35,365 nt of DNA from Saccoglossus kowalevskii. Lineage: Eukaryota; Hemichordata; Enteropneusta; Harrimaniidae. The notes beneath the pieces are model-generated. The model was not told where the DNA came from and did no database searches. It was given only the letters and a program-made list of their open reading frames with translations. The stretch is from NCBI RefSeq assembly GCF_000003605.2, contig NW_003125193.1:1-35365 (forward strand), given 5' to 3'. Made by a program: the position numbers and the translations under genes. Positions 1-35,365 of this stretch are shown in pieces; positions within the stretch are counted from its first letter, which is position 1, and each line of letters starts with the position of its first letter.

Positions 1-129
1 AGTTCATCAATGGCATTTATCTTCCCAGCCCAACAATATGGCATTTATCTTCCCAGTCCATCAATATGGCATTTATCTTCCCAGTCCAACAATATGGCAT
101 TTATCTTCCCAGTCCAACAATATGGCATT

Positions 130-465
130 GATCTACCCAGTCCAAAAAGATTGCATTTATCTACCCAGGCCAACAATATGGCATTTATCTACCCAGTCCA
201 ACAAGATGGCATTTATCTACCCAGTCCAACAATATAGCATTGATCTACCCAGTCCAACAATATGGCATTTATCTTCCCAGTCCAACAATATGGCATTGAT
301 CTACCCAGTCCAAAAAGATTGCATTTATCTACCCAGGCCAACAATATGGCATTGATCTACCCAGTCCAACAATATGGCATTTATCTACCCAGTCCAACAA
401 TATAGCATTGATCTACCCAGTCCAACAATATGGCATTTATCTTCCCAGTCCAACAATATGGCATT
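130..465. repeat. 168-bp (6-unit) tandem duplication
   Basis: Three linked rare variants occur twice, 168 bp apart: CCAAAAAGATTG at 142 and 310, CCCAGGCC just after each, and ATATAGC at 232 and 400. 168 is exactly six units, so this is a local in-register duplication. The second Q lies 278 bp before the E variant at 588, the spacing found again at 3778-4056 and 23079-23357. The units just after the second CCCAGGCC differ slightly (TTGATC in place of TTTATC), so it is not a fresh perfect copy. Confidence 0.85.
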
Positions 466-559
466 GATCTACCCAGTCCAACACTATGGCATTGATCTAC
501 CCAGTTCAACAAGATTGCATTTATCTACCCAGTTCAACAATATGGCATTGATCTACCCA

Positions 560-1300
560 GTTCAACAAGATTGCATTTATCTACCCCGTTCACCAATATG
601 GCATTGATCTGCCCAGTCCAACAAGATTGCATTTATCTACCCAGTCCAACAATATGGCATTGATCTACCCAGTCCAACAATATGGCATTGATCTACCCAG
701 TCCAACAAGATTGCATTTATCTACCCAGTCCAACAATATGGCATTGATCTACCCAGTCCAACAATATGGCATTTATCTTACCAGTCCAACTATATGGCAT
801 TGATCTACCCAGTCCACATATGGCATTGATCTACCCAGTTCACAGATGGCATTTATCTACCCAGTCCAACAATATGGCATTGATCTACCCAGTGTAACAT
901 AATGGCATGGATCTACCCAGTCCAACAATATGGCATTGATCTACCCAGTCCAACAAGATTGCATTGATCTACCCAGTTCAACAATATGGCATTTATCTTC
1001 CCAGTCCAACAATATGGCATTTATCTTCCCAGTCCAACAATATGGCAGTTATCTTCCCAGTCCAACAATATGGCATTTATCTACCCAGTCCAACAATATA
1101 GCATTGATCTACTCAGTCCAACAATATGGCATTTAACTACCCAGTCCAACAATATGGCATTAATCTACCCAGTTCAACAAGATTGCATTTATCTACCCAG
1201 TCCTACAATATGGCATTTATCTACCCAGTCCAACAAGATGGCATTTATCTACCCAGTCCAACAATATGGCATTGATCTACCCAGTTCAACAAGATGCATT
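560..1300. repeat. Delta module copy 1, shortened before A
   Basis: Landmarks in order are E (GTTCACC, 588), A (GTGTAACATAATGG, 892), H (ATATAGC, 1096) and I (AAGATGCAT, 1291). A-H is 204 and H-I is 195, the same as in other copies. E-A is only 304 instead of 616, so about 11 units are missing. The units at 808-850 have lost single bases from AA pairs (GTCCACATATGG, GTTCACAGATGG), so the shortening and these losses lie close together. Confidence 0.8.
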
Positions 1301-1810
1301 TATCTACCCAGTCCAACAATATGGCATTTATCTACCCAGTCCAACAAGATGGCATTTATCTACCCAGTCCAACAATATGGCATTGATCTACCCAGTGTAA
1401 CATAATGGCATGGATCTACCCAGTCCAACAATATGGCATTGATCTACCCAGTTCAACAAGATTGCATTTATCTACCCAGTTCAACAATATGGCATTGATC
1501 TACCCAGTTCAACAAGATTGCATTTATCTACCCCGTTCACCAATATGGCATTGATCTGCCCAGTCCAACAAAGATTGCATTTATCTACCCAGTCCAACAA
1601 TATGGCATTGATCTACCCAGTCCAACAATATGGCATTGATCTACCCAGTTCAACAAGATTGCATTTATCTACCCAGTTCAACAGTATGGCATTTATCTTC
1701 CCAGTCCAACAATATGGCATTGATCTACCCAGTCCAACAAGATGGCATTTATCTACCCTGTCCAACAATATGGCATTGATCCACCCAGTCCAACAAAATG
1801 GCATTTATCT
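1301..1810. repeat. Rearranged A/E fragments leading into beta 1
   Basis: A second A variant at 1395 is only 503 bp after the first and is not followed by H. It is followed instead by E at 1535, reversing the usual E-then-A order. A single-base A insertion (CAACAAAGATTG) sits near 1568. From about 1680 the units match the lead-in to the beta modules (CAGTATGG, CCCTGTCC, CAAAATGG). The stretch therefore looks like a junction of module pieces; no gene is seen. Confidence 0.7.
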
Positions 1811-2340
1811 ACTCAGTCCAACAATATGGCATTGATCTACCCAGTTCAACAAGATGGCATTTATCTAACCAGTCCAACAAGATGGCATTGATCCACCCAG
1901 TCCAACAAGATTGCATTGATCCACCCAGTCCAACAATATGGCATTGATCTACCCAGTTCAACACGATGGCATTTATCTAACCAGTCCAACAAGATGGCAT
2001 TGATCCACCCAGTCCAACAAGATTGCATTGATCCACCCAGTCCAACAATATGGCATTGATATACCCAGTTTAACAATATGGCATTGATCTACCCAGTTCA
2101 ACAAGATTGCATTTATCTACCCAGTCCTACAATATGGCATTTATCTACCCAGTCCAACAAGATGGCATTTATCTACCCAGTCCAACAATATGGCATTGAT
2201 CCACCCAGTCCAACAATATGGCATTTATCTTCCCAGTCCAACAATATGGCATTGATCTACCCAGTCCAACAAGATTGCATTGATCTACCCAGTTCAACAA
2301 TATTGCATTTATCTTCCCAGTCCAACAATATGTCATTTAT
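1811..2340. repeat. Beta module copy 1 (K-D-C)
   Basis: K (ACTCAG) is at 1811, D (GTTTAAC) at 2068 and C (ATGTCATT) at 2330, with spacings 257 and 262. The K-D half is rich in TTGATCCACCC units and contains an internal 112-bp (four-unit) duplication: TTATCTAACC is at 1861 and again at 1973. A CpG in CAACACGATGG near 1960 is diagnostic of the module. The C end has CAATATTG, an 8-bp palindrome, just before the ATGTCATT unit. Confidence 0.85.
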
Positions 2341-3200
2341 CTTCCCAGTCCAACAATATGGCATTGATCTACCCAGTCCAACAATATGGCATTTATCTTC
2401 CCAGTCCAACAATATGGCATTGATCTACCCAGTCCAACAATATGGCATTGATCTACCCAGTTCAACAAGATCGCATTTATCTACCCAGTTCAACAATATG
2501 GCATTGATCTACCCAGTTCAACAAGATTGCATTTATCTACCCAGTTCAACAATTATGGCATTGATCTACCCAGTCGAACAAGATGGCATTTATCTACCCA
2601 GTCCAACAATATGGCATTGATCTACCCAGTCCAACAATATGGCATTGATCTACCCAGTTCAACAAGATTGCATTTATCATCCCAGTCCAACAATATGGCA
2701 TTGATCTACCCAGTCCAACAATATGGCATTGATTCACCCAGTTCAACAAGATTGCATTTATCTACCCAGTTCAACAAGATTGCATTTATCTACCCAGTTC
2801 AACAAGATGGCATTTATCTACCCAGTCCAACAATATGGCATTGATCTACCCAGTTCAACAAGATTGCATTTATCTACCCAGTTCAACAATATGGCATTTA
2901 TCTTCCCAGTCCAACAATATGGCATTTATCTTCCCAGTCCAACAATATGGCATTTATCTTCCCAGTCCGACAATATGGCATTTATCTACCCAGTCCAACA
3001 ATATGGCATTGATCTACCCAGTGTAACATAATGGCATGGATCTACCCAGTCCAACAATATGGCATTGATCTACCCAGTCCAACAAGATTGCATTGATCTA
3101 CCCAGTTCAACAATATGGCATTTATCTTCCCAGTCCAACAATATGGCATTTATCTTCCCAGTCCAACAATATGGCATTTATCTTCCCAGTCCAACAATAT
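2341..3200. repeat. Mixed units with isolated N and A landmarks
   Basis: This stretch joins pieces of several modules. GATCGC (N) is at 2469 but lacks the CTATATGG expected 277 bp later. The A variant is at 3021, preceded by GTCCGAC near 2967 as in other delta copies, yet H does not follow. One T is inserted near 2550 (CAACAATTATGG). Nothing but repeat units is present. Confidence 0.7.
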
Positions 3201-4056
3201 GGCGGTGATCTACCCAGTCCAACAAGATTGCATTTATCTACCCAGTCCAACAATATGGCATTGATCCACCCAGTCCAACAATATGGCATTGATTCACCCA
3301 GTTCAACAATATGGATTGATCCACCGAGTCCAACAATATGGCATTGATCTACCCAGTTCAACAATATGGCATTTATCTACCCAGTCCAACAAGATGGCAT
3401 TGATCTACCCAGTCCAACAATATGGCATTGATCCACCCAGTCCAACAATATGGCATTGATCCACCCAGTCCAACAATATGGCATTGATCTACCCAGTTCA
3501 ACAATATGGCATTTATATTCCCAGTCCAACAATATGGGCATTTATCTTCCCAGTCCAACAATATGGCATTTATCTTCCCAGTCCAACAATATGGCATTTA
3601 TCTTCCCAGTCCAACAATATGGCATTGATCTACCCAGTCCAACAAGATTGCATTTATCTACCCAGTTCAACAATATGGCATTTATCTTCCCAGTCCAACA
3701 TATGGCATTTATCTTCCCAGTCCAACAATATGGCATTTATGTTCCCAGTCCAACAATATGGCATTGATCTACCCAGTCCAAAAAGATTGCATTTATCTAC
3801 CCAGGCCAACAATATGGCATTTATCTACCCAGTCCAACAAGATGGCATTTATCTACCCAGTCCAACAATATGGCATTGATCTACCCAGTCCAACAATATG
3901 GCATTTATCTTCCCAGTCCAACAATATGGCATTGATCTACCCAGTCCAACAATATGGCATTGATCTACCCAGTTCAACAAGATTGCATTTATCTACCCAG
4001 TTCAACAATATGGCATTGATCTACCCAGTTCAACAAGATTGCATTTATCTACCCCG
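3201..4056. repeat. Gamma module copy 1 (B-J-E, Q form)
   Basis: B (GGCGGTG) is at 3201, J (ATGGATTG, then CCACCGAG) at 3311, TATATTCC at 3514, Q (CCAAAAAGATTG) at 3778 and E (CCCCGTTCACC, GTTC at 4056). B-J is 110 and B-TATATTCC is 313, as in other copies. B-E is 855, five units shorter than the 995 of the copies at 12854 and 29653. Single-base changes near 3535 (ATGGGC) and 3698 (CAACATATGG) are homopolymer-length changes. Confidence 0.85.
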
Positions 4057-5248
4057 TTCACCAATATGGCATTGATCTGCCCAGTCCAACAAGATTGCAT
4101 TTATCTACCCAGTCCAACAATATGGCATTGATCTACCCAGTCCAACAATATGGCATTGATCTACCCAGTCCAACAAGATTGCATTTATCTACCCAGTCCA
4201 ACAATATGGCATTGATCTACCCAGTCCAACAATATGGCATTTATCTTACCAGTCCAACTATATGGCATTGATCTACCCAGTCCAACAATATGGCATTGAT
4301 CTACCCAGTTCAACAAGATGGCATTTATCTACCCAGTCCAACAATATGGCATTGATTCACCCAGTTCAACAAGATTGCATTTATCTACCCAGTTCAACAA
4401 GATTGCATTTATCTACCCAGTTCAACAAGACTGCATTTATCTACCCAGTCCAACAAGACTGCATTTATCTACCCAGTCCAACAATATGGCATTGATCTAC
4501 CCAGTTCAACAAGATTGCATTTATCTACCCAGTTCAACAATATGGCATTTATCTTCCCAGTCCAACAATATGGCATTTATCTTCCCAGTCCAACAATATG
4601 GCATTTATCTTCCCAGTCCGACAATATGGCATTTATCTACCCAGTCCAACAATATGGCATTGATCTACCCAGTGTAACATAATGGCATGGATCTACCCAG
4701 TCCAACAATATGGCATTGATCTACCCAGTCCAACAAGATTGCATTGATCTACCCAGTTCAACAATATGGCATTTATCTTCCCAGTCCAACAATATGGCAT
4801 TTATCTTCCCAGTCCAACAATATGGCAGTTATCTTCCCAGTCCAACAATATGGCATTTATCTACCCAGTCCAACAATATAGCATTGATCTACTCAGTCCA
4901 ACAATATGGCATTGATCTACCCAGTCCAACAATATGGCATTGATCTACCCAGTTCAACAAGATTGCATTTATCTACCCAGTCCTACAATATGGCATTAAT
5001 CTACCCAGTTCAACAAGATTGCATTTATCTACCCAGTCCTACAATATGGCATTTATCTACCCAGTCCAACAAGATGGCATTTATCTACCCAGTCCAACAA
5101 TATGGCATTGATCTACCCAGTTCAACAAGATTGCATTTATCTACCCAGTCCTACAATATGGCATTTATCTACCCAGTCCAACAAGATGGCATTTATCTAC
5201 CCAGTCCAACAATATGGCATTGATCTACCCAGTTCAACAAGATGCATT
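4057..5248. repeat. Delta module copy 2 (CTATATGG-A-H-I)
   Basis: CTATATGG is at 4258, A at 4672, H at 4876 and I at 5239. CTATATGG-A is 414, E-A is 616 and A-H is 204, all standard. H-I is 363, which is 195 plus 168, so six extra units are present. They lie around the repeated GTCCTACAAT variants near 4980, 5036 and 5148. GTCCGAC with its CpG is near 4618. Confidence 0.85.
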
Positions 5249-5640
5249 TATCTACCCAGTCCAACAATATGGCATTTATCTACCCAGTCCAACAAGATGG
5301 CATTTATCTACCCAGTCCAACAATATGGCATTGATCCACCCAGTCCAACAAGATTGCATTTATCTACCCAGTCCAACAATATGGCATTGATCCACCCAGT
5401 CCAACAATATGGCATTGATCCACCCAGTCCAACAATATGGCATTTATCTTCCCAGTCCAACAATATGGCATTGATCTACCCAGTCCAACAAGATTGCATT
5501 GATCTACCCAGTTCAACAATATTGCATTTATCTTCCCAGTCCAACAATATGTCATTTATCTTCCCAGTCCAACAATATGGCATTTATCTTCCCAGTCCAA
5601 CAATATGGCATTGATCTACCCAGTCCAACAAGATTTCATT
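5249..5640. repeat. Beta-C end fragment, twin of 29.0-29.35 kb
   Basis: It carries CAATATTGCATT and ATGTCATT (C at 5549) and, 82 bp later, the rare AGATTTCATT at 5631. The only other C followed by AGATTTC that I found is at 29259/29341, also 82 bp apart. The two stretches therefore share a recent common source. K and D are absent upstream, so this is a truncated module end. Confidence 0.75.
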
Positions 5641-5815
5641 TATCTACCAGTCCACATATGGCATTTATCTAGCCAGTCCAACAATAAGGCATTGATCTAT
5701 CCACCTCACCAACATTGCCTTTATCTACCCGGTTCATGAATATGGAATTTATCTTCCCACTCCAACCATATGGCATTGATCTACCCAGTCCAATAATATT
5801 GTCTTGATCTACCCA
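5641..5815. repeat. Most diverged patch of the array
   Basis: About six successive units carry scattered substitutions seen nowhere else: TCTAGCCAG, CAATAAGGC, ATCTATCCACCTCACC, CATTGCCTTTATC, GGTTCATGAA, TCCCACTCCAACCATATGG and TATTGTCTTG. The first units also lose bases from runs (CTACCAGTCCACATATGG). The 28-bp rhythm is still recognisable. It could be an old, unhomogenised remnant, a junction between blocks, or poor consensus sequence. Confidence 0.8.
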
Positions 5816-6540
5816 GTTCAACAATATGGCATTTATCTTCCCAGTCCAACAATATGGCATTTATCTTCCCAGTCCAACAATATGTCATTGATCTACCCAG
5901 TCCAACAATATGGCATTTATCTACCCAGTCCAACAATATGGCATTTATCTACCCAGTCCAACAATATGGCATTTATCTACCCAGTCCAACAATATGGCAT
6001 TGATCTTCCCAGTCCAACAATATGGCATTTATCTTCCCAGTCCAACAATATGGATTGATCCACCGAGTCCAACAATATGGCATTGATCTACCCAGTTCAA
6101 CAATATGGCATTTATCTACCCAGTCCAACAAGATGGCATTGATCTACCCAGTCCAACAATATGGCATTGATCCACCCAGTCCAACAATATGGCATTGATC
6201 CACCCAGTCCAACAATATGGCATTGATCTACCCAGTTCAACAATATGGCATTTATATTCCCAGTCCAACAATATGGCATTTATCTTCCCAGTCCAACAAT
6301 ATGGCATTTATCTTCCCAGTCCAACAATATGGCATTTATCTTCCCAGTCCAACAATATGGCATTTATCTTCCCAGTCCAACAATATGGCATTGATCTACC
6401 CAGTCCAAAAAGATTGCATTTATCTACCCAGGCCAACAATATGGCATTTATCTACCCAGTCCAACAAGATGGCATTTATCTACCCAGTCCAACAATATGG
6501 CATTGATCTACCCAGTCCAACAATATGACATTTATCTTCC
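5816..6540. repeat. Gamma fragment lacking B and E
   Basis: J (ATGGATTG then CCACCGAG) is at 6050 and TATATTCC at 6253, 203 bp apart exactly as in intact gamma copies (110 to 313). Q (CCAAAAAGATTG) is at 6405. B is missing upstream, replaced by a run of TTTATCTACCC and TTTATCTTCCC units, and no E follows at the expected 278 bp. The fragment ends near a CCCAATCC variant at about 6540. Confidence 0.75.
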
Positions 6541-13849: not shown

Positions 13850-15062
13850 TTCACCAATATGGCATTGATCTGCCCAGTCCAACAAGATTGCATTTATCTA
13901 CCCAGTCCAACAATATGGCATTGATCTACCCAGTCCAACAGTATGGCATTGATCTACCCAGTCCAACAAGATTGCATTTATCTACCCAGTCCAACAATAT
14001 GGCATTGATCTACCCAGTCCAACAATATGGCATTTATCTTACCAGTCCAACTATATGGCATTGATCTACCCAGTCCAACAATATGGCATTGATCTACCCA
14101 GTTCAACAAGATGGCATTTATCTACCCAGTCCAACAATATGGCATTGATTCACCCAGTTCAACAAGATTGCATTTATCTACCCAGTTCAACAAGATTGCA
14201 TTTATCTACCCAGTTCAACAAGACTGCATTTATCTACCCAGTCCAACAAGACTGCATTTATCTACCCAGTCCAACAATATGGCATTGATCTACCCAGTTC
14301 AACAAGATTGCATTTATCTACCCAGTTCAACAATATGGCATTTATCTTCCCAGTCCAACAATATGGCATTTATCTTCCCAGTCCGACAATATGGCATTTA
14401 TCTTCCCAGTCCGACAATATGGCATTTATCTACCCAGTCCAACAATATGGCATTGATCTACCCAGTGTAACATAATGGCATGGATCTACCCAGTCCAACA
14501 ATATGGCATTGATTTACCCAGTCCAACAAGATTGCATTGATCTACCCAGTTCAACAATATGGCATTTATCTTCCCAGTCCAACAATATGGCATTTATCTT
14601 CCCAGTCCAACAATATGGCATTTATCTTCCCAGTCCAACAATATGGCATTTATCTACCCAGTCCAACAATATAGCATTGATCTAATCAGTCCAACAATAT
14701 GGCATTTAACTACCCAGTCCAACAATATGGCATTAATCTACCCAGTTCAACAAGATTGCATTTATCTACCCATTCCTACAATATGGCATTTATCTAACCA
14801 GTCCAACAAGATGGCATTTATCTACCCAGTCCAACAATATGGCATTCATCTACCCAGTTCAACAAGATGCATTTATCTACCCAGTCCAACAATATGGCAT
14901 TTATCTACCCAGTCCAACAAGATGGCATTTATCTACCCAGTCCAACAATATGGCATTGATCCACCCAGTCCAACAAGATTGGATTTATCTACCCAGTCCA
15001 ACAATATGGCATTGATCCACCCAGTCCAACAATATGGCATTGATTCACCCAGTTCAACAATA
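13850..15062. repeat. Delta module copy 4 (full, to J)
   Basis: CTATATGG is at 14051, A at 14465, H at 14669, I at 14864 and J (CCACCCAG form) at 15062. E-A 616, CTATATGG-A 414, A-H 204, H-I 195 and A-J 597 are all standard, making this the most complete delta copy. Two GTCCGAC variants (about 14382 and 14409) replace the usual one. The unit after H reads TCTAATCAG instead of TCTACTCAG. Confidence 0.9.
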
Positions 15063-17434
15063 TGGATTGATCCACCCAGTCCAACAATATGGCATTGATC
15101 TACCCAGTTCAACAATATGGCATTTATCTACCCAGTCCAACAAGATGGCATTGATCTACCCAGTCCAACAATATGGCATTGATCCACCCAGTCCAACAAT
15201 ATGGCATTGATCCACCCAGTCCAACAATATGGATCTACCCAGTTCAACAATATGGCATTTATCTTACCAGTCCAACAATATGGCATTTATCTTCCCAGTC
15301 CAACAATATGGCATTTATCTTCCCAGTCCAACAATATGGCATTTATCTTCCCAGTCCAACAATATGGCATTTATCTTCCCAGTCCAACAATATGGCATTG
15401 ATCTACCCAGTCCAACAAGATTGCATTTATCTACCCAGTTCAACAATATGGCATTTATCTTCCCAGTCCACCAATATGGCATTTATCTTCCCTGTCCAAC
15501 AATATGGCATTTATCTTCCCAGTCCATCAATATGGCATTTATCTTCCCAGTCCAACAATATGGCATTGATCTACCCAGTCCAACAAGATTGCACTTATCT
15601 ACCCAGTCCAACAATATGGCATTGATCTACCCAGTCCAACAATATGGCATTTATCTACCCAGTCCAACAAGATGGCATTTATCTACCCAGTCCAACAATA
15701 TGGCATTGATCTACCCAGTCCAACAATATGGCATTTATCTTCCCAGTCCAACAATATGGCATTGATCTACCCAGTCCAACAATATGGCATTGATCTACCC
15801 AGTTCAACAAGATCGCATTTATCTACCCAGTTCAACAATATGGCATTGATCTACCCAGTTCAACAAGATTGCATTTATCTACCCAGTTCAACAATATGGC
15901 ATTGATCTACCCAGTCCAACAAGATTGCATTTATCTACCCAGTCCAACAATATGGCATTGATCTACCCAGTCCAACAATATGGCATTGATCTACCCAGTC
16001 CAACAAGATTGCATTTATCTACCCAGTCCAACAATATGGCATTGATCTACCCAGTCCAACAATATGGCATTTATCTTCCCAGTCCAACTATATGGCATTG
16101 ATCTACCCAGTCCAACAATATGGCATTGATCTACCCAGTTCAACAAAATGGCATTTATCTACCCAGTCCAACAATATGGCATTGATCTACCCAGTCCAAC
16201 AAGATTGCATTGATCTACCCAGTTCAACAATATTGCATTTATCTTCCCAGTCCAACAATATGGCATTGATCTACCCAGTTCAACAAGATTGCATTTATCT
16301 ACCCAGTTCAACATTATGGCATTTATCTTCCCAGTCCAACAATATGGCATTGATCTACCCAGTCCAACAAGATGGCATTGATCTACCCAGTTCAACAAGA
16401 TTGCATTTATCTACCCAGTTCAACATTATGGCATTTATCTTCCCAGTCCAACAATATGGCATTGATCTACCCAGTCCAACAAGATGGCATTTATCTACCC
16501 TGTCCAACAATATGGCATTGATCCACCCAGTCCAACAAAATGGCATTTATCTACTCAGTCCAACAATATGGCATTGATCTACCCAGTTCAACAAGATGGC
16601 ATTTATCTAACCAGTCCAACAAGATGGCATTGATCCACCCAGTCCAACAAGATTGCATTGATCCACCCAGTCCAACAATATGCCATTGATCTACCCAGTT
16701 CAACACGATGGCATTTATCTACCCAGTCCAACAAGATGGCATTGATCCACCCAGTCCAACAAGATTGCATTGATCCACACAGTCCAACAATATGGCATTG
16801 ATATACCCAGTTTAACAATATGGCATTGATCTACCCAGTTCAACAAGATTGCATTTATCTACCCAGTCCTACAATATGGCATTTATCTACCCAGTCCAAC
16901 AAGATGGCATTTATCTACCCAGTCCAACAATATGGCATTGATCCACCCAGTCCAACAATATGGCATTTATCTTCCCAGTCCAACAATATGGCATTGATCT
17001 ACCCAGTCCAACAAGATTGCATTGATCTACCCAGTTCAACAATATTGCATTTATCTTCCCAGTCCAACAATATGTCATTTATCTTCCCAGTCCAACAATA
17101 TGGCATTTATCTTCCCAGTCCAACAATATGGCATTGATCTACCCAGTCCAACAAGATTGCATTTATCTACCCAGTCCAACAATATGGCATTTATCTACCC
17201 AGTCCAACAATATGGCATTGATCTACCCAGTTCAACAAGATTGCATTTATCTACCCAGTTCAACAATATGGCATTTATCTTCCCAGTCCAACAATATGGC
17301 ATTGATCTACCCAGTCCAACAAGATTGCATTGATCTACCCAGTTCAACAATATGGCATTTATCTTCCCAGTCCAACAATATGGCATTTATCTTCCCAGTC
17401 CAACAATATGGCATTTATCTACCCAGTCCAACAA
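14920..17434. repeat. 2,515-bp super-repeat, first copy (alpha+beta)
   Basis: It begins in the delta tail (J at 15062) and continues through L (15229), G (15492), M (15591), N (15811), CTATATGG (16088), AAAATGG (16145), K (16553), D (16810) and C (17072). J and L recur exactly 2,515 bp later at 17577 and 17744. L-G is 263 here, one unit shorter than the 291 of other copies. Between L and G a unit reads TTTATCTTCCCTG rather than TTGATCTTCCCTG. Outer edges are estimated by matching the context around AAGATGGCATTTATC. Confidence 0.8.
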
Positions 17435-19950
17435 GATGGGCATTTATCTACCCAGTCCAACAATATGGCATTGATCCACCCAGTCCAACAAGATTGCATT
17501 TATCTACCCAGTCCAACAATATGGCATTGATCCACCCAGTCCAACAATATGGCATTGATTCACCCAGTTCAACAATATGGATTGATCCACCCAGTCCAAC
17601 AATATGGCATTGATCTACCCAGTTCAACAATATGGCATTTATCTACCCAGTCCAACAAGATGGCATTGATCTACCCAGTCCAACAATATGGCATTGATCC
17701 ACCCAGTCCAACAATATGGCATTGATCCACCCAGTCCAACAATATGGATCTACCCAGTTCAACAATATGGCATTTATCTTACCAGTCCAACAATATGGCA
17801 TTTATCTTCCCAGTCCAACAATATGGCATTTATATTCCCAGTCCAACAATATGGCATTTATCTTCCCAGTCCAACAATATGGCATTTATCTTCCCAGTCC
17901 AACAATATGGCATTGATCTACCCAGTCCAACAAGATTGCATTTATCTACCCAGTTCAACAATATGGCATTTATCTTCCCAGTCCACCAATATGGCATTTA
18001 TCTTCCCAGTCCAACAATATGGCATTGATCTTCCCTGTCCAACAATATGGCATTTATCTTCCCAGTCCAACAATATGGCATTTATCTTCCCAGTCCAACA
18101 ATATGGCATTGATCTACCCAGTCCAACAAGATTGCACTTATCTACCCAGTCCAACAATATGGCATTGATCTACCCAGTCCAACAATATGGCATTTATCTA
18201 CCCAGTCCAACAAGATGGCATTTATCTACCCAGTCCAACAATATGGCATTGATCTACCCAGTCCAACAATATGGCATTTATCTTCCCAGTCCAACAATAT
18301 GGCATTGATCTACCCAGTCCAACAATATGGCATTGATCTACCCAGTCCAACAATATGGCATTTATCTTCCCAGTCCAACAATATGGCATTGATCTACCCA
18401 GTCCAACAATATGGCATTGATCTACCCAGTTCAACAAGATCGCATTTATCTACCCAGTTCAACAATATGGCATTGATCTACCCAGTTCAACAAGATTGCA
18501 TTTATCTACCCAGTTCAACAATATGGCATTGATCTACCCAGTCCAACAAGATTGCATTTATCTACCCAGTCCAACAATATGGCATTGATCTACCCAGTCC
18601 AACAATATGGCATTGATCTACCCAGTCCAACAAGATTGCATTTATCTACCCAGTCCAACAATATGGCATTGATCTACCCAGTCCAACAATATGGCATTGA
18701 TCTTCCCAGTCCAACTATATGGCATTGATCTACCCAGTCCAACAATATGGCATTGATCTACCCAGTTCAACAAAATGGCATTTATCTACCCAGTCCAACA
18801 ATATGGTATTGATCTACCCAGTCCAACAAGATTGCATTGATCTACCCAGTTCAACAATATTGCATTTATCTTCCCAGTCCAACAATATGGCATTTATCTT
18901 CCCAGTCCAACAATATGGCATTTATCTTCCCAGTCCAACAATATGGCATTGATCTACCCAGTCCAACAAAATTGCATTAATCTACCCAGTCGAACAATAT
19001 GGCATTTATCTACCCAGTCCAACAATATGGCATTGATCTACCCAGTTCAACAAGATTGCATTTATCTACCCAGTTCAACAGTATGGCATTTATCTTCCCA
19101 GTCCAACAATATGGCATTGATCTACCCAGTCCAACAAGATGGCATTTATCTACCCTGTCCAACAATATGGCATTGATCCACCCAGTCCAACAAAATGGCA
19201 TTTATCTACTCAGTCCAACAATATGGCATTGATCTACCCAGTTCAACAAGATGGCATTTATCTAACCAGTCCAACAAGATGGCATTGATCCACCCAGTCC
19301 AACAAGATTGCATTGATCCACCCAGTCCAACAATATGGCATTGATCTACCCAGTTCAACACGATGGCATTTATCTACCCAGTCCAACAAGATGGCATTGA
19401 TCCACCCAGTCCAACAAGATTGCATTGATCCACCCAGTCCAACAATATGGCATTGATATACCCAGTTTAACAATATGGCATTGATCTACCCAGTTCAACA
19501 AGATTGCATTTATCTACCCAGTCCTACAATATGGCATTTATCTACCCAGTCCAACAAGATGGCATTTATCTACCCAGTCCAACAATATGGCATTGATCCA
19601 CCCAGTCCAACAATATGGCATTTATCTTCCCAGTCCAACAATATGGCATTGATCTACCCAGTCCAACAAGATTGCATTGATCTACCCAGTTCAACAATAT
19701 TGCATTTATCTTCCCAGTCCAACAATATGTCATTTATCTTCCCAGTCCAACAATATGGCATTTATCTACCCAGTCCAACAATATGGCATTGATCTACCCA
19801 GTCCAACATGATTGCATTTATCTACCCAGTCCAACAATATGGCATTTATCTACCCAGTCCAACAATATGGCATTGATCTACCCAGTTCAACAAGATTGCA
19901 TTGATCTACCCAGTCCAAACAATATGGCATTGATCCACCCAGTCCAACAA
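17435..19950. repeat. 2,515-bp super-repeat, second copy (alpha+beta)
   Basis: J is at 17577, L 17744, G 18035, M 18134, N 18438, CTATATGG 18715, AAAATGG 18772, S 18989, K 19208, D 19465 and C 19727. L-C is 1,983 against 1,843 in the first copy; the 140-bp excess is five whole units, placed as one before G, three between M and N, and one between AAAATGG and K. The copy ends near a CCAAACAATATGG insertion at about 19916, where units switch to gamma type. Confidence 0.85.
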
Positions 19951-22473: not shown

Positions 22474-23700
22474 GGCGGTGATCTACCCAGTCCAACAAGA
22501 TTGCATTTATCTACCCAGTCCAACAATATGGCATTGATCCACCCAGTCCAACAATATGGCATTGATTCACCCAGTTCAACAATATGGATTGATCCACCGA
22601 GTCCAACAATATGGCATTGATCTACCCAGTTCAACAATATGGCATTTATCTACCCAGTCCAACAAGATGGCATTGATCTACCCAGTCCAACAATATGGCA
22701 TTGATCCACCCAGTCCAACAATATGGCATTGATCCACCCAGTCCAACAATATGGCATTGATCTACCCAGTTCAACAATATGGCATTGATCTACCCAGTTC
22801 AACAATATGGCATTTATCTTCCCAGTCCAACAATATGGCATTTATCTTCCCAGTCCAACAATATGGCATTTATCTTCCCAGTCCAACAATATGGCATTGA
22901 TCTACCCAGTCCAACAAGATTGCATTTATCTACCCAGTTCAACAATATGGCATTTATCTTCCCAGCCCAACAATATGGCATTTATCTTCCCAGTCCATCA
23001 ATATGGCATTTATCTTCCCAGTCCAACAATATGGCATTTATCTTCCCAGTCCAACAATATGGCATTGATCTACCCAGTCCAAAAAGATTGCATTTATCTA
23101 CCCAGGCCAACAATATGGCATTTATCTACCCAGTCCAACAAGATGGCATTTATCTACCCAGTCCAACAATATGGCATTGATCTACCCAGTCCAACAATAT
23201 GGCATTTATCTTCCCAGTCCAACAATATGGCATTGATCTACCCAGTCCAACAATATGGCATTGATCTACCCAGTTCAACAAGATTGCATTTATCTACCCA
23301 GTTCAACAATATGGCATTGATCTACCCAGTTCAACAAGATTGCATTTATCTACCCCGTTCACCAATATGGCATTGATCTGCCCAGTCCAACAAGATTGCA
23401 TTTATCTACCCAGTCCAACAATATGGCATTGATCTACCCAGTCCAACAATATGGCATTGATCTACCCAGTCCAACAAGATTGCATTTATCTACCCAGTCC
23501 AACAATATGGCATTGATCTACCCAGTCCAACAATATGGCATTGATCTACCCAGTTCAACAAGATGGCATTTATCTACCCAGTCCAACAATATGGCATTGA
23601 TTCACCCAGTTCAACAAGATTGCATTTATCTACCCAGTTCAACAAGATTGCATTTATCTACCCAGTTCAACAAGACTGCATTTATCTACCCAGTCCAACA
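22474..23700. repeat. Gamma module copy 3 (Q form)
   Basis: B is at 22474, J at 22584 (110), Q at 23079 and E at 23357. Q-E is 278, as at 3778-4056. B-E is 883, four units short of 995. The unit expected to hold TATATTCC at 22787 instead reads TTGATCTACCC, as if overwritten by a neighbouring type. After E the delta lead-in begins but stops before A at about 23700, where TTTATCTTCC units take over. Confidence 0.82.
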
Positions 23701-24178: not shown

Positions 24179-25140
24179 ATGGATCTACCCAGTTCAACAA
24201 TATGGCATTTATCTTACCAGTCCAACAATATGGCATTTATCTTCCCAGTCCAACAATATGGCATTTATCTTCCCAGTCCAAAAATATGGCATTTATCTTC
24301 CCAGTCCAACAATATGGCATTTATCTTCCCAGTCCAACAATATGGCATTGATCTACCCAGTCCAACAAGATTGCATTTATCTACCCAGTTCAACAATATG
24401 GCATTTATCTTCCCAGTCCACCAATATGGCATTTATCTTCCCAGTCCAACAATATGGCATTGATCTTCCCTGTCCAACAATATGGCATTTATCTTCCCAG
24501 TCCAACAATATGGCATTTATCTTCCCAGTCCAACAATATGGCATTGATCTACCCAGTCCAACAAGATTGCACTTATCTACCCAGTCCAACAATATGGCAT
24601 TGATCTACCCAGTCCAACAATATGGCATTTATCTACCCAGTCCAACAAGATGGCATTTATCTACCCAGTCCAACAATATGGCATTGATCTACCCAGTCCA
24701 ACAATATGGCATTTATCTTCCCAGTCCAACAATATGGCATTGATCTACCCAGTCCAACAATATGGCATTGATCTACCCAGTTCAACAAGATCGCATTTAT
24801 CTACCCAGTTCAACAATATGGCATTGATCTACCCAGTTCAACAAGATTGCATTTATCTACCCAGTTCAACAATATGGCATTGATCTACCCAGTCCAACAA
24901 GATTGCATTTATCTACCCAGTCCAACAATATGGCATTGATCTACCCAGTCCAACAATATGGCATTGATCTACCCAGTCCAACAAGATTGCATTTATCTAC
25001 CCAGTCCAACAATATGGCATTGATCTACCCAGTCCAACAATATGGCATTGATCTTCCCAGTCCAACTATATGGCATTGATCTACCCAGTCCAACAATATG
25101 GCATTGATCTACCCAGTTCAACAAAATGGCATTTATCTAC
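24179..25140. repeat. Alpha module copy 3
   Basis: L is at 24179, G 24470, M 24569, N 24789, CTATATGG 25066 and AAAATGG 25123, with spacings 291, 99, 220, 277 and 57. A private variant, CCAAAAATATGG at 24278, is shared with the next alpha copy at 26113, exactly 1,835 bp on. The two are therefore a recent pair. Confidence 0.88.
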
Positions 25141-26013: not shown

Positions 26014-26960
26014 ATGGATGTACCCAGTTCAACAATATGGCATTTATCTTACCAGTCCAACAATATGGCATTTATCTTCCCAGTCCAACAATATGGCATT
26101 TATCTTCCCAGTCCAAAAATATGGCATTTATCTTCCCAGTCCAACAATATGGCATTTATCTTCCCAGTCCAACAATATGGCATTGATCTACCCAGTCCAA
26201 CAAGATTGCATTTATCTACCCAGTTCAACAATATGGCATTTATCTTCCCAGTCCACCAATATGGCATTTATCTTCCCAGTCCAACAATATGGCATTGATC
26301 TTCCCTGTCCAACAATATGGCATTTATCTTCCCAGTCCAACAATATGGCATTTATCTTCCCAGTCCAACAATATGGCATTGATCTACCCAGTCCAACAAG
26401 ATTGCACTTATCTACCCAGTCCAACAATATGGCATTGATCTACCCAGTCCAACAATATGGCATTTATCTACCCAGTCCAACAAGATGGCATTTATCTACC
26501 CAGTCCAACAATATGGCATTGATCTACCCAGTCCAACAATATGGCATTTATCTTCCCAGTCCAACAATATGGCATTGATCTACCCAGTCCAACAATATGG
26601 CATTGATCTACCCAGTTCAACAAGATCGCATTTATCTACCCAGTTCAACAATATGGCATTGATCTACCCAGTTCAACAAGATTGCATTTATCTACCCAGT
26701 TCAACAATATGGCATTGATCTACCCAGTCCAACAAGATTGCATTTATCTACCCAGTCCAACAATATGGCATTGATCTACCCAGTCCAACAATATGGCATT
26801 GATCTACCCAGTCCAACAAGATTGCATTTATCTACCCAGTCCAACAATATGGCATTGATCTACCCAGTCCAACAATATGGCATTTATCTTCCCAGTCCAA
26901 CTATATGGCATTGATCTACCCAGTCCAACAATATGGCATTGATCTACCCAGTTCAACAAT
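26014..26960. repeat. Alpha module copy 4
   Basis: L (here ATGGATGTACC) is at 26014, the shared CCAAAAATATGG at 26113, G 26305, M 26404, N 26624 and CTATATGG 26901. All spacings equal those of copy 3. After CTATATGG it diverges: a TTTATCTTACC unit replaces the AAAATGG unit, following the order seen from 10243 instead. Confidence 0.87.
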
Positions 26961-27680: not shown

Positions 27681-28490
27681 CCAACAATATGGTATTGATC
27701 TACCCAGTCCAACAAGATTGCATTGATCTACCCAGTCCAAAAAGATTGCATTTATCTACCCAGGCCAACAATATGGCATTTATCTACCCAGGTCCAACAA
27801 GATGGCATTTATCTACCCAGTCCAACAATATGGCATTGATCTACCCAGTCCAACAATATGGCATTTATCTTCCCAGTCCAACAATATGGCATTGATCTAC
27901 CCAGTCCAACAATATGGCATTGATATACCCAGTTCAACAAGATTGCATTTATCTACCCAGTTCAACAATATGGCATTGATCTACCCAGTTCAACAAGATT
28001 GCATTTATCTACCCCGTTCACCAATATGGCATTGATCTGCCCAGTCCAACAAGATTGCATTTATATACCCAGTCCAACAATATGGCATTGATCTACCCAG
28101 TCCAACAATATGGCATTGATCTACCCAGTCCAACAAGATTGCATTTATCTACCCAGTCCAACAATATGGCATTGATCTACCCAGTCCAACAATATGGCAT
28201 TTATCTTACCAGTCCAACTATATGGCATTGATCTACCCAGTCCAACAATATAGCATTGATCTACTCAGTCCAACAATATGGCATTTAACTACCCAGTCCA
28301 ACAATATGGCATTTAACTACCCAGTCCAACAATATGGCATTAATCTACCCAGTTCAACAAGATTGCATTTATCTACCCAGTCCTACAATATGGCATTTAT
28401 CTACCCAGTCCAACAAGATGGCATTTATCTACCCAGTCCAACAATATGGCATTGATCTACCCAGTTCAACAAGATGCATTTATCTACCCA
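27681..28490. repeat. Q-E and H-I fragments joined
   Basis: Q is at 27737 and E at 28016; the spacing is 279 rather than 278 because CCCAGGTCC near 27790 has one extra G. CTATATGG is at about 28219. H at 28248 then follows directly without A, and I is at 28471 (223, one unit more than 195). The usual 414-bp CTATATGG-A segment has been skipped. Confidence 0.78.
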
Positions 28491-28558
28491 GTCCAACAAT
28501 ATGGCATTTATCTACCCAGTCCAACAAGATGGCATTTATCTACCCAGTCCAACAATAT

Positions 28559-29325
28559 GGCATTGATCCACCCAGTCCAACAAGATTGCATTTATCTACC
28601 CAGTCTAACAATATGGCATTGATCCACCCAGTCCAACAATATGGCATTGATCCACCCAGTCCAACAATATGGCATTTATCTTCCCAGTCCAACAATATGG
28701 CATTGATCTACCCAGTCCAACAAGATTGCATTGATCTACCCAGTTCAACAATATTGCATTTATCTTCCCAGTCCAACAATATGTCATTTATCTTCCCAGT
28801 CCAACAATATGGCATTTATCTTCCCAGTCCAACAATATGGCATTTATCTTCCCAGTCCAACAATATGGCATTAATCTACCCAGTCCAACAAGATTGCATT
28901 TATCTACCCAGTTCAACAATATGGCATTTATCTTCCCAGCCCAACAATATGGCATTTATCTTCCCAGTCCATCAATATGGCATTTATCTTCCCAGTCCAA
29001 CAATATGGCATTTATCTACCCAGTCCAACAATATGGCATTGATCCACCCAGTCCAACAAGATTGCATTTTATTTACCCAGTCCAAACAATATGGCATTGA
29101 TCCACCCAGTCCAACAATATGGCATTGATCCACCCAGTCCAACAATATGGCATTTATCTTCCCAGTCCAACAATATGGCATTGATCTACCCAGTCCAACA
29201 AGATTGCATTGATCTACCCAGTTCAACAATATTGCATTTATCTTCCCAGTCCAACAATATGTCATTTATCTTCCCAGTCCAACAATATGGCATTTATCTT
29301 CCCAGTCCAACAATATGGCATTGAT
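28559..29325. repeat. Tandem duplication, 476/478 bp apart
   Basis: The order from GGCATTGATCCACCC at 28559 restarts at 29035 (476 bp, 17 units). C (ATGTCATT) is at 28781 and again at 29259 (478 bp). The two extra bases are visible in the second copy near 29068 and 29085: GCATTTTATTTACCC and CCAAACAATATGG. The copies stay similar for about 290 bp each and diverge after about 28847 and 29325. Confidence 0.82.
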
Positions 29326-29652
29326 CTACCCAGTCCAACAAGATTTCATTTATCTACCCAGTCCAACAATATGGCATTTATCTACCCAGTCCAACAATAT
29401 GGCATTGATCTACCCAGTTCAACAAGATTGCATTTACCTACCCAGTTCAACAATATGGCATTTATCTTCCCAGTCCAACAATATGGCATTGATCTACCCA
29501 GTCCAACAAGATTGCATTGATCTACCCAGTTCAACAATATGGCATTTATCTTCCCAGTCCAACAATATGGCATTTATCTTCCCAGTCCAACAATATGGCA
29601 TTTATCGTCCCAGTCCAACACTATGGCATTTATCTACCCAGTCCAACAATAT
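29326..29652. repeat. Units leading into gamma 4
   Basis: AGATTTCATT is at 29341, 82 bp after C, as at 5549/5631. TTTACCTACCC is near 29430 and TTTATCGTCCC near 29602. This resembles 22190-22470, the lead-in to gamma copy 3. Confidence 0.65.
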
Positions 29653-31264
29653 GGCGGTGATCTACCCAGTCCAACAAGATTGCATTTATCTACCCAGTCC
29701 AACAATATGGCATTGATCCACCCAGTCCAACAATATGGCATTGAATCACCCAGTTCAACAATATGGATTGATCCACCGAGTCCAACAATATGGCATTGAT
29801 CTACCCAGTTCAACAATATGGCATTTATCTACCCAGTCCAACAAGATGGCATTGATCTACCCAGTCCAACAATATGGCATTGATCCACCCAGTCCAACAA
29901 TATGGCATTGATCCACCCAGTCCAACAATATGGCATTGATCTACCCAGTTCAACAATATGGCATTTATATTCCCAGTCCAACAATATGGCATTTATCTTC
30001 CCAGTCCAACAATATGGCATTTATCTTCCCAGTCCAACAATATGGCATTTATCTTCCCAGTCCAACAATATGGCATTGATCTACCCAGTCCAACAAGATT
30101 GCATTTATCTACCCAGTTCAACAATATGGCATTTATCTTCCCAGTCCAACAATATGGCATTTATCTTCCCAGTCCATCAATATGGCATTTATCTTCCCAG
30201 TCCAACAATATGGCATTTATCTTCCCAGTCCAACAATATGGCATTCATCTACCCAGTCCAACAATATGGCATTGATCTACCCAGTCCAACAATATGGCAT
30301 TTATCTTCCCAGTCCAACAATATGGCATTGACCTACCCAGTCCAACAAGATGGCATTTATCTACCCAGTCCAAAAATATGGCATTGATCTACCCAGTCCA
30401 ACAATATGGCATTTATCTTCCCAGTCCAACAAGATGGCATTTATCTACCCAGTCCAACAATATGGCATTGATCTACCCAGTCCAACAATATGGCATTTAT
30501 CTTCCCAGTCCAACAATATGGCATTGATCTACCCAGTCCAACAATATGGCATTGATCTACCCAGTTCAACAAGATTGCATTTATCTACCCAGTTCAACAA
30601 TATGGCATTGATCTACCCAGTTCAACAAGATTGCATTTATCTTCCCCGTTCACCAATATGGCATTGATCTGCCCAGTCCAACAAGATTGCATTTATCTAC
30701 CCAGTCCAACAATATGGCATTGATCTACCCAGTCCAACAATATGGCATTGATCTACCCAGTCCAACAAGATTGCATTTATCTACCCAGTCCAACAATATG
30801 GCATTGATCTACCCAGTCCAACAATATGGCATTTATCTTACCAGTCCAACTATATGGCATTGATCTACCCAGTCCAACAATATGGCATTGATCTACCCAG
30901 TTCAACAAGATGGCACTTATCTACCCAGTCCAACAATATGGCATTGATTCACCCAGTTCAACAAGATTGCATTTATCTACCCAGTTCAACAAGATTGCAT
31001 TTATCTACCCAGTTCAACAAGACTGCATTTATCTACCCAGTCCAACAAGACTGCATTTATCTACCCAGTCCAACAATATGGCATTGATCTACCCAGTTCA
31101 ACAAGATTGCATTTATCTACCCAGTTCAACAATATGGCATTTATCTTCCCAGTCCAACAATATGGCATTTATCTTCCCAGTCCAACAATATGGCATTTAT
31201 CTTCCCAGTCCGACAACATGGCATTTATCTACCCAGTCCAACAATATGGCATTGATCTACCCAG
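29653..31264. repeat. Gamma copy 4 plus delta to A
   Basis: B 29653, J 29763, TATATTCC 29966, E 30648, CTATATGG 30850 and A 31264. B, TATATTCC, E and A are each exactly 16,799 bp from their counterparts at 12854, 13167, 13849 and 14465. The 1,611-bp span therefore has no net length difference. After A the H unit (expected at 31468) is replaced by TTTATCTTCCC, part of a run of five such units at about 31365-31495. Confidence 0.9.
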
Positions 31265-31706
31265 TGTAACATAATGGCATGGATCTACCCAGTCCAACAA
31301 TATGGCATTGATCTACCCAGTCCAACAAGATTGCATTGATCTACCCAGTTCAACAATATGGCATTTATCTTCCCAGTCCAACAATATGGCATTTATCTTC
31401 CCAGTCCAACAATATGGCATTTATCTTCCCAGTCCAACAATATGGCATTTATCTTCCCAGTCCAACAATATGGCATTTATCTTCCCAGTCCAACAATATG
31501 GCATTTAACTACCCAGTCCAACAATATGGCATTAATCTACCCAGTTCAACAAGATTGCATTTATCTACCCAGTCCTACAATATGGCATTTATCTTCCCAG
31601 TCCAACAATATGGCATTGATCTACCCAGTCCAACAAGATGGCATTTATCTACCCTGTCCAACAATATGGCATTGATCCACCCAGTCCAACAAAATGGCAT
31701 TTATCT
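31265..31706. repeat. Delta-to-beta junction
   Basis: The units after A keep the GGCATGGATC start, then the TTTATCTTCC run, TTTAACTACCC and TTAATCTACCC and GTCCTACAAT as after H. They then switch near 31590 to the beta lead-in (CCCTGTCC, CAAAATGG). I and S are absent. Confidence 0.72.
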
Positions 31707-32226
31707 ACTCAGTCCAACAATATGGCATTGATCTACCCAGTTCAACAAGATGGCATTTATCTAACCAGTCCAACAAGATGGCATTGATCCACCCAGTCCA
31801 ACAAGATTGCATTGATCCACCCAGTCCAACAATATGGCATTGATCTACCCAGTTCAACACGATGGCATTTATCTACCCAGTCCAACAAGATGGCATTGAT
31901 CCACCCAGTCCAACAAGATTGCATTGATCCACCCAGTCCAACAATATGGCATTGATATACCCAGTTTAACAATATGGCATTGATCTACCCAGTTCAACAA
32001 GATTGCATTTATCTACCCAGTCCTACAATATGGCATTTATCTACCCAGTCCAACAAGATGGCATTTATCTACCCAGTCCAACAATATGGCATTGATCCAC
32101 CCAGTCCAACAATATGGCATTTATCTTCCCAGTCCAACAATATGGCATTGATCTACCCAGTCCAACAAGATTGCATTGATCTACCCAGTTCAACAATATG
32201 GCATTTATCTTCCCAGCCCAACAATA
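31707..32226. repeat. Beta module copy 5 (K-D, C overwritten)
   Basis: K is at 31707 and D at 31964 (257). At the C position the unit reads ATATGGCATT instead of ATGTCATT, and the CAATATTG just before it is CAATATGG. Both C-end diagnostics are thus replaced while K-D is intact. CACGATGG is present near 31859. Confidence 0.85.
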
Positions 32227-32479
32227 TGGCATTTATCTTCCCAGTCCAACAATATGGCATTTATCTTCCCAGTCCAACAATATGGCATTTATCTTCCCAG
32301 TCCAACAATATGGCATTGATCTATTCAGTCCAACAAGATTGCATTGATCTACCCAGTTCAACAATATGGCATTTATCTTCCCAGTCCAACAATATGGCAT
32401 TTATCTTCCCAGTCCAACAATATGGCATTAATCGTCCCAGTCCAACAATATGGCATTTATCTACCCAGTCCAACAATAT
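32227..32479. repeat. TTTATCTTCC-rich units before gamma 5
   Basis: A run of TTTATCTTCCC units, a TTGATCTATTCAG unit near 32320 and a TTAATCGTCCC unit near 32430. The same pair of rare types precedes the truncated B at 24069. Confidence 0.65.
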
Positions 32480-33460
32480 GGCGGTGATCTACCCAGTCCA
32501 ACAAGATTGCATTTATCTACCCAGTCCAACAATATGGCATTGATCCACCCAGTCCAACAATATGGCATTGATTCACCCAGTTCAACAATATGGATTGATC
32601 CACCGAGTCCAACAATATGGCATTGATCTACCCAGTTCAACAATATGGCATTTATCTACCCAGTCCAACAAGATGGCATTGATCTACCCAGTCCAACAAT
32701 ATGGCATTGATCCACCCAGTCCAACAATATGGCATTGATCCACCCAGTCCAACAATATGGCATTGATCTACCCAGTTCAACAATATGGCATTTATATTCC
32801 CAGTCCAACAATATGGCATTTATCTTCCCAGTCCAACAATATGGCATTTATCTTCCCAGTCCAACAATATGGCATTTATCTTCCCAGTCCAACAATATGG
32901 CATTGATCTACCCAGTCCAACAAGATTGCATTTATCTACCCAGTTCAACAATATGGCATTTATCTTCCCAGTCCAACAATATGGCATTTATCTTCCCAGT
33001 CCATCAATATGGCATTTATCTTCCCAGTCCAACAATATGGCATTGATCTACCCAGTCCAACAATATGGCATTGATCTACCCAGTCCAACAATATGGCATT
33101 TATCTTCCCAGTCCAACAATATGGCATTGATCTACCCAGTCCAACAAGATGGCATTTATCTACCCAGTCCAACAATATGGCATTGATCTACCCAGTCTAA
33201 CAATATGGCATTTATCTTCCCAGTCCAACAAGATGGCATTTATCTACCCAGTCCAACAATATGGCATTGATCTACCCAGTCCAACAATATGGCATTTATC
33301 TTCCCAGTCCAACAATATGGCATTGATCTACCCAGTCCAACAATATGGCATTGATCTACCCAGTTCAACAAGATTGCATTTATCTACCCAGTTCAACAAT
33401 ATGGCATTGATCTACCCAGTTCAACAAGATTGCATTTATCTACCCAGTTCACCAATATGG
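32480..33460. repeat. Gamma module copy 5
   Basis: B is at 32480, J 32590, TATATTCC 32793 and E (GTTCACC) 33447. B-J and B-TATATTCC are standard; B-E is 967, one unit less than 995. It lies 2,827 bp after copy 4, one base short of 101 units. Confidence 0.87.
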
Positions 33461-34516
33461 CATTGATCTGCCCAGTCCAACAAGATTGCATTTATCTACC
33501 CAGTCCAACAATATGGCATTGATCTACCCAGTCCAACAGTATGGCATTGATCTACCCAGTCCAACAAGATTGCATTTATCTACCCAGTCCAACAATATGG
33601 CATTGATCTACCCAGTCCAACAATATGGCATTGATCTACCCAGTCCAACAATATGGCATTTATCTTCCCAGTCCAACAATATGGCATTTATCTTCCCAGT
33701 CCAACAATATGGCATTTATCTTCCCAGTCCAACAATATGGCATTGATGTACCCAGTCCAACAAGATTGCATTTATCTACCCAGTTCAACAATATGGCATT
33801 TATCTTCCCAGTCCAACAATATGGCATTTATCTTCCCAGTCCATCAATATGGCATTTATCTTCCCAGTCCAACAATATGGCATTTATCTTCCCAGTCCAA
33901 CAATACGGCATTGATCTACCCAGTCCAACAATATGGCATTGATCTACCCAGTCCAACAATATGGTATTTATCTTCCCAGTCCAACAATATTGCATTGATC
34001 TACCCAGTCCAACAAGATGGCATTTATCTACCCAGTCCAACAATATGGCATTGATCTACCCAGTCTAACAATATGGCATTTATCTTCCCAGTCCAACACG
34101 ATGGCATTTATCTACCCAGTCCAACAATATGGCATTGATCTACCCAGTCCAACAATATGGCATTTATCTTCCCAGTCCAACAATATGGCATTGATCTACC
34201 CAGTCCAACAATATGGCATTGATCTACCCAGTTCAACAAGATGGCATTTATCTACCCAGTTCAACAAGAGGGCATTGATCTACCCAGTTCAACAAGATTG
34301 CATTTATCTACCCAGTTCAACAATATGGCATTGATCTACCCAATCCAACAAGATTGCATTTATCTACCCAGTCCAACAATATGGCATTGATCTACCCAGT
34401 CCAACAATATGGCATTGATCTACCCAGTCCAACAAGATTGCATTTATCTACCCAGTCCAACAATATGGCATTGATCTACCCAGTCCAACAATATGGCATT
34501 TATCTTCCCAGTCCAA
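33461..34516. repeat. Second copy of part of gamma 2
   Basis: CAATACGG (33901) and CACGATGG (34097) are each 20,466 bp from 13435 and 13631. The shared rare GTCCATCAATATGG and CAATATTGCATTGATC units lie between and around them. B, J and E are absent; where E would be, units read AACAAGAGGGC near 34263. A GGTATTTATC change near 33963 is private. Confidence 0.78.
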
Positions 34517-34754
34517 CTATATGGCATTGATCTACCCAGTCCAACAATATGGCATTGATCTACCCAGTTCAACAAAATGGCATTTATCTACCCAGTCCAA
34601 CAATATGGCATTGATCTACCCAGTCCAACAAGATTGCATTGATCTACCCAGTTCAACAATATTGCATTTATCTTCCCAGTCCAACAATATGGCATTTATC
34701 TTCCCAGTCCAACAATATGGCATTTATCTTCCCAGTCCAACAATATGGCATTGA
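34517..34754. repeat. Alpha fragment (CTATATGG-AAAATGG)
   Basis: CTATATGG (34517) and AAAATGG (34574) keep the 57-bp spacing, followed by CAATATTGCATT and TTTATCTTCC units as in the alpha-to-beta lead-in. N is absent upstream. Confidence 0.7.
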
Positions 34755-35091
34755 TCCACCCAGTCCAACAAGATTGCATTGATCCACCCAGTCCAACAAT
34801 ATGGCATTGATATACCCAGTTTAACAATATGGCATTGATCTACCCAGTTCAACAAGATTGCATTTATCTACCCAGTCCTACAATATGGCATTTATCTACC
34901 CAGTCCAACAAGATGGCATTTATCTACCCAGTCCAACAATATGGCATTGATCCACCCAGTCCAACAATATGGCATTTATCTTCCCAGTCCAACAATATGG
35001 CTTTGATCTACCCAGTCCAACAAGATTGCATTGATCTACCCATTTCAACAATATTGCATTTATCTTCCCAGTCCAACAATATGTCATTTAT
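34755..35091. repeat. Beta module copy 6, 5-prime truncated
   Basis: D is at 34819 and C at 35081 (262). K, the 112-bp internal duplication and CACGATGG are missing: the lead-in TTTATCTTCC units join directly to the last TTGATCCACCC units before D. Private changes are GGCTTTGATC near 35000 and CCCATTTCAAC near 35039. Confidence 0.83.
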
Positions 35092-35365
35092 CTTCCCAGT
35101 CCAACAATATGGCATTTATCTTCCCAGTCCAACAATATGGCATTGATCTACCCAGTCCAACAAGATTGCATTTATCTACCCAGTCCAACAATATGGCATT
35201 TATCTACCCAGTCCAACAATATGGCATTGATCTACCCAGTTCAACAAGATTGCATTTATCTACCCAGTTCAACAATATGGCATTTATCTTCCCAGTCCAA
35301 CAATATGGCATTGATCAACCCAGTCCAACGAGATGGCATTGATCTACCCAGTTCAACGATATGGC
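35092..35365. repeat. Array continuing past the window end
   Basis: Ordinary units follow the C end as at 17083-17310. The last units have private changes (TTGATCAACCC, CAACGAGATGG, GTTCAACGATATGG). The window stops inside a unit, so the right boundary of the array is not seen. Confidence 0.85.

Follow-up and report, generated by a model that had tools for sequence, protein, structure and literature searches.

How does a satellite array come to carry its variant units in an order that is far from random and has no dominant period? The question is raised by a contig of the hemichordate Saccoglossus kowalevskii (NW_003125193.1, here C1781), the whole 35,365 bp of which were analysed and are referred to as the window. 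The window is nothing but a 28-bp repeat, arranged head-to-tail without flanking unique sequence. Tandem Repeats Finder (TRF) recognises a single array of period 28 (span 10-35365, 90% matches), and one monomer pattern, with at most 2 mismatches allowed, is matched 876 times on the plus strand and 0 times on the opposite strand.

1..35365, + strand: 28-bp monomer array occupying the entire contig, TRF consensus ATGGCATTTATCTACCCAGTCCAACAAT

Wrap-around decomposition divides the window into 1,266 monomers, 1,224 of which are exactly 28 bp long, and these fall into 196 distinct types including 120 singletons. Common variants are confined to monomer columns 3, 9, 13, 14, 21 and 28, the remaining 22 columns being more than 95% uniform. 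Rare variants with indels are also present, and one of them, a 27-bp type, recurs identically six times. A long head-to-tail run of similar non-coding units of this kind is typical of a satellite, or tandem repeat array; the 28-bp unit and the 196 types also agree with a minisatellite, a class with units of 9-100 bp (PMC2599865) and interspersed variant repeats, in which alleles further differ in length and structure.

The monomers do not follow one another at random. The longest exact run that recurs comprises 30 monomers (864 bp), compared to 5 at most in 50 shuffles, and 452 pairs of rare 12-mers recur at a fixed spacing at least four times, compared to 0 in each of 10 shuffles. Repeated 12-monomer words take up 13.1% of positions versus 0.01% under a first-order and 4.0% under a second-order Markov null; a third-order null exceeds the observed value (25.9%), an excess that we put down to the null memorising the array. 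Furthermore, 71 local self-alignments take in 87% of the monomers at a mean depth of 4, and 74 pairs of exact repeats of at least 250 bp span 62% of the window. The window thus holds higher-order repeats (HORs) in the pair-of-blocks sense, in which multi-monomer blocks are duplicated and their corresponding monomers are alike. It lacks the dominant period of the alpha-satellite type of HOR: the best lag identity is 0.105 (lag 601) versus at most 0.086 in 20 shuffles, and the top lags are scattered. A single-period HOR is ruled out, since no lag dominates, and an ancestral dimer was likewise dropped, as lag-2 alternation is weak and occurs at columns 9 and 28 only. A sequence-only reading of this DNA had described it as a 28-bp satellite built as a mosaic of recurring blocks in no single period, and had named random monomer order as one outcome that would overturn this; decomposition, runs and self-alignments bear the description out. 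The principal modules are the following, the exact ones being identical in their two copies.

24186..25049, + strand: first copy of the longest exact module, with 30 whole monomers in 864 bp (exact self-match)
26021..26884, + strand: longest exact module, copy 2, 864 bp (exact self-match)
19082..19700, + strand: first copy of a 619-bp exact module, the other lying 12.5 kb away (exact self-match)
31581..32199, + strand: 619-bp exact module, copy 2, paired with the copy at 19082 (exact self-match)
15528..16146, + strand: first copy of a second 619-bp exact module, the initial 544 bp of which reappear at 24506
26341..26959, + strand: second 619-bp exact module, copy 2, paired with the copy at 15528 (exact self-match)
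3742..4241, + strand: 500-bp exact module, the other copy of which lies 19.3 kb off at 23043
14890..19890 (approximate, converted from monomer numbers), + strand: approximate tandem pair of ~2.5-kb blocks, monomers 533-616 and 623-711

The tandem pair is the top-scoring approximate self-alignment, with 77% of its aligned monomers identical.

The same modular order had been noticed as ten fixed base spacings between rare variants, and six of these were recovered with identifiable anchors. Thus, N (GATCGCAT) is followed by CTATATGG at 277 six times and CTATATGG by A (GTGTAACA) at 414 four times; M (GCACTTAT) precedes N by 220 four times, G (CTGTCCAA) precedes M by 99 five times, A precedes H (ATATAGCA) by 204 five times and E (GTTCACCA) precedes A by 616 three times. 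The L-G spacing of 291 did not reappear with a G that fits the G-M pair among words occurring 3-20 times; at this spacing, 14 other pairs of rare 8-mers recur three times or more. The anchor letters of K-D (257), D-C (262) and B-J (110) are undefined, so these spacings were checked generically: 17, 26 and 12 rare 8-mer pairs, respectively, recur at the quoted number or more, against a shuffle mean of 0.0 (n = 20), which supports the spacings in a general way.

The assembly, which comprises 572 Mb in 4,830 contigs, contains the satellite on one further contig. Three monomer patterns, with at most 2, 3 and 3 mismatches, are matched 1,222, 1,742 and 1,785 times in the assembly, and these totals equal exactly the counts on C1781 and on contig C2064 (876 + 346, 1,215 + 527 and 1,249 + 536). 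In the readable assembly the unit is therefore found on those two contigs only; the 28-bp monomer occurs nowhere else at up to 3 mismatches in a 24-base core, a search that N stretches and collapsed or unassembled arrays would escape. C2064 is 15,185 bp long and is satellite from end to end (544 monomers), and it shares exact matches of up to 610 bp with the window. The assembled satellite thus comes to ~51 kb on two contigs, for a class of DNA that is generally abundant in a genome and usually heterochromatic. Its first 1.9 kb, in minus-strand reading, contain 22% singleton monomers and few repeated words, and this end possibly lies nearer an array edge. A patch that resembles it is found inside the window at ~5.7-7.6 kb, and there is no clear edge-to-centre divergence gradient along the array.

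Module sharing was also related to distance. It was measured as monomer pairs with identical exact 6-monomer words, and within the window it amounts to 658 of 794,430 pairs (8.3 per 10^4). Between the window and C2064 it is 437 of 679,679 pairs (6.4 per 10^4), which is nearly the window's own level. Pairs fewer than 60 monomers apart (<1.7 kb) share least, at 14 of 72,629 (1.9 per 10^4). By distance class, the rates per 10^4 are 0.0, 2.0 and 2.5 below 60 monomers and 14.6 at 60-99, and from there up to 35 kb they range between 3.1 and 13.9 without trend. In addition, lag and identity are uncorrelated across the 71 alignments (Spearman 0.10, p = 0.41). Sharing thus does not fall with distance, and this, together with its low at close range and its near-equal level across contigs, is what is new here.

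The evolution of such arrays was simulated in a coarse rejection scheme of 1,123 runs (404 with global copying, 352 with local copying and 367 with tandem duplication; 8 without usable alignments were dropped), the models assuming equilibrium, a single array, geometric blocks and crude mutation. Global copying accounts for 33 of the 40 nearest simulations, tandem duplication for 7 and local copying for 0. Among the 15 nearest listed, 13 are global, with mean blocks of 98-388 monomers (~3-11 kb), and these 13 have arrays of 2,025-4,267 monomers (~57-119 kb); hand-picked runs fitted the data with shorter blocks of 60-100 monomers (~2-3 kb). When small blocks (mean 30 monomers) were duplicated in tandem, the runs showed a strong short-range excess, with short-lag ratios of 2.5-7.8 versus 0.23 observed, and scant sharing between contigs. 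Within the limits of such models, the simulations favour distance-independent block copying over tandem duplication or local copying.

We consider it slightly on the probable side that this is an array of animal satellite or long minisatellite DNA, the pattern of which comes from repeated, distance-blind block copying. Stretches of ~1-10 kb would be copied in register from one place of the array onto another, largely irrespective of the distance between them, while point mutation would add new monomer variants. The copying could take place between sister or homologous arrays that are out of alignment, by gene conversion, break-induced replication or synthesis-dependent strand annealing. The earlier suggestion that the modules arose by block amplification holds in part: distance-independent copying fits the data better, and local tandem duplication of blocks misfits them, given the missing decay with distance and the missing local excess.

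Several observations weigh against distance-blind copying. Sharing inside C2064 is lower, at 49 of 144,991 pairs (3.4 per 10^4), and the highest shuffled value is slightly exceeded at 7 of the 700 lags, all between 321 and 615 monomers. A tandem block pair is present at monomers 533-711. When events are counted instead of monomer pairs, 4 of 116 in the window fall below 60 monomers where 10.6 would be expected (run length 6, binomial p = 0.016); p is 0.03 at run length 5 and 0.05 at run length 8, and the deficit is not significant at run lengths 3 and 4 in the window, nor at any run length in C2064. Since the deficit is mild or non-significant by events, the claim is limited to the absence of a local excess of module sharing, and a firm short-range deficit is not claimed. 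Furthermore, all of the 15 nearest listed simulations yield fewer alignments than observed, no run fits perfectly, and tandem runs with mean blocks of 400 monomers in an array of 2,500 approach two of the observed ratios, the low one at short range and the one between window and C2064.

This last result belongs to the strongest of the rival explanations, which we nevertheless regard as unlikely. It holds that blocks of several kb were duplicated in tandem by unequal crossing-over, followed by deletion and renewed duplication and without any distance-blind copying, in keeping with the model of Smith (1976) as related in PMC8997354. The ~2.5-kb tandem pair fits it, and tandem runs with mean blocks of 187 and 103 monomers make up 2 of the 10 nearest simulations. 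Runs with blocks of 400 and 800 monomers give fewer alignments than the window (means of 6-19 versus 64) and longer ones (length-weighted 129-376 versus 79 monomers), which, with the 33 to 7 split noted above, makes large-block tandem duplication disfavoured under the models used. Next in probability, and also unlikely, is that the order is an artefact: the true array would be more regular or of greater length, the false order having arisen as the assembler walked between near-identical modules. Both contigs start and stop within the repeat, short of unique sequence; exact repeats reach 864 bp, and those of at least 250 bp cover so much of the window that modules could have been stitched together. 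The assembly is also fragmented, 20 sampled contigs ranging from 11 kb to 662 kb. The reappearance of modules on C2064, exact over as much as 610 bp, and the identical recurrence of rare indel variants argue against such an error, and a short-read assembly would hardly have been able to cross the 74 exact repeat pairs. We infer that the assembly is faithful to the chromosome.

The two remaining rivals concern the origin and the role of the array; both are compatible with any mechanism, and the probabilities expressed here do not sum to one. An improbable one is that the array belongs to a contaminant or cobiont, another eukaryote in the sample and not the worm. The confinement of the monomer to two contigs of the readable assembly, neither of which ties it to unique sequence, would fit such a source; nothing direct contradicts it, and a weak counterpoint is that the window's guanine-cytosine (GC) content of about 40-42% lies within the 0.32-0.51 range of 18 sampled N-free contig stretches of the assembly. 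Least probable of the four is that the array has a structural role, as a centromere or otherwise, and that the module mosaic serves as a functional higher-order code. Satellites often underlie animal and plant centromeres (PMC8997354), and nearly all common variation is held by six columns; such uniformity of the other columns would also be expected from homogenisation alone. The assembled array amounts to ~51 kb and has no unique flanks, there is no regular HOR, and folding of the monomer dimer beats shuffles on neither strand (z about +1), with no dyad or hairpin.

No function was detected for the array, and Rfam gave no match at gathering score. The window contains 80 open reading frames of at least 100 aa, the longest of 264 aa; they are read as chance and a coding function was set aside, no protein-family search of these frames having been made. 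Viral and prokaryotic origins were also set aside: neither a 28-mer nor a degenerate 30-mer of the repeat is matched exactly in a viral contig collection, and the same holds for a 27-mer and a degenerate 25-mer in a prokaryotic one, though collections confined to these groups say little about the repeat. In composition, the window strand is C-rich and G-poor, with a GC skew of -0.34 to -0.41 at each 1-kb step, and CpG is almost missing (61 observed versus 1,257 expected, ~5%), the consensus dimer containing no CG. The tightest linkage between variant sites crosses the monomer boundary, from column 28 to column 3 of the next unit (mutual information 0.38), the junction words being AATATGGC (789 occurrences), AAGATTGC (212), AAGATGGC (86) and AATATTGC (18).

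The mitochondrial contig of the same assembly (C4830, 17,037 bp) was also read; COX1 was located on it by its Pfam family and the other genes were named by eye from open frames. The other eight long genes read are all on the strand that does not encode COX1, ND2 precedes ND1, and ND5 adjoins cytochrome b. COX1 has ATA at sites that we take to be Ile. In cytochrome b, AAA occupies a Lys site, and AGA occurs six times in the frames read, at least two of these probably upstream of the gene. For the mitochondrion of Saccoglossus kowalevskii, published work gives a COX1 inversion, a transposition of ND1 or ND2, and AUA=Ile, AAA=Lys and AGA=Ser (PMC3121625), and the nd5-cob neighbourhood and an ATA change are reported for hemichordates (PMC2697986). 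One AGG, which lies where the COX3 open frame begins and possibly outside the gene, misfits the published 'absent' entry; as far as the sequence can tell, gene order and codon use fit the description of this species, and the assembly most likely comes from it or from a close relative. A bony fish as the source was rejected on the grounds of ATA at Ile sites, AAA=Lys and the COX1 inversion.

The judgement that the array is unlike a simple minisatellite is fair, though its kind is already known. In TRASH, a HOR is a pair of multi-monomer blocks that are duplicates of each other, with no period required, and the HORs annotated in this sense for Arabidopsis CEN178 are likewise block duplications that need no discrete monomer classes (PMC10199239). 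The two differ in unit length (28 versus 178 bp) and in that ours is a small animal array of 51 kb on two contigs, for which a centromere link would be hypothetical. Complex conversion has been described in human minisatellites, and MS32 and MSY1 resemble the window in their short units and interspersed variant types; their changes are complex and partly length-neutral, and synthesis-dependent strand annealing has been proposed for them (PMC2599865). Unlike them, the present array runs to more than 1,200 units on a single contig and is known from one assembly. In human alpha-satellite arrays multi-monomer blocks are also amplified jointly (PMC10199239), with unequal exchange and break-induced replication as the same candidate mechanisms (PMC8997354), but there HOR periods are reported for individual chromosomes, whereas no period dominates here. 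Among the matches listed in the openly licensed literature, there is neither a study of a hemichordate satellite nor a description of this 28-bp repeat, and a paper of 2024 that presents two hemichordate genomes (PMC11175523) uses neither the word 'satellite' nor the word 'tandem' in its main text.

It is disputed whether unequal exchange or copying repair, in the form of conversion or break-induced replication, drives satellite evolution (PMC8997354), and the array would offer a convenient test case, as it could be spanned by one ultra-long read, is rich in variant markers and has a flat similarity-distance curve. Apart from this value, it looks like an ordinary repeat, an ordinary animal satellite with an unusually well-shuffled order. 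In its most specific and still doubtful form, the copying account describes a 28-bp array of ~60-120 kb at a single locus, which in-register copying blind to distance keeps fully mixed and in which local tandem duplication is almost absent. If true, a hemichordate satellite would here be evolving through conversion or break-induced replication and not through unequal exchange and slippage.

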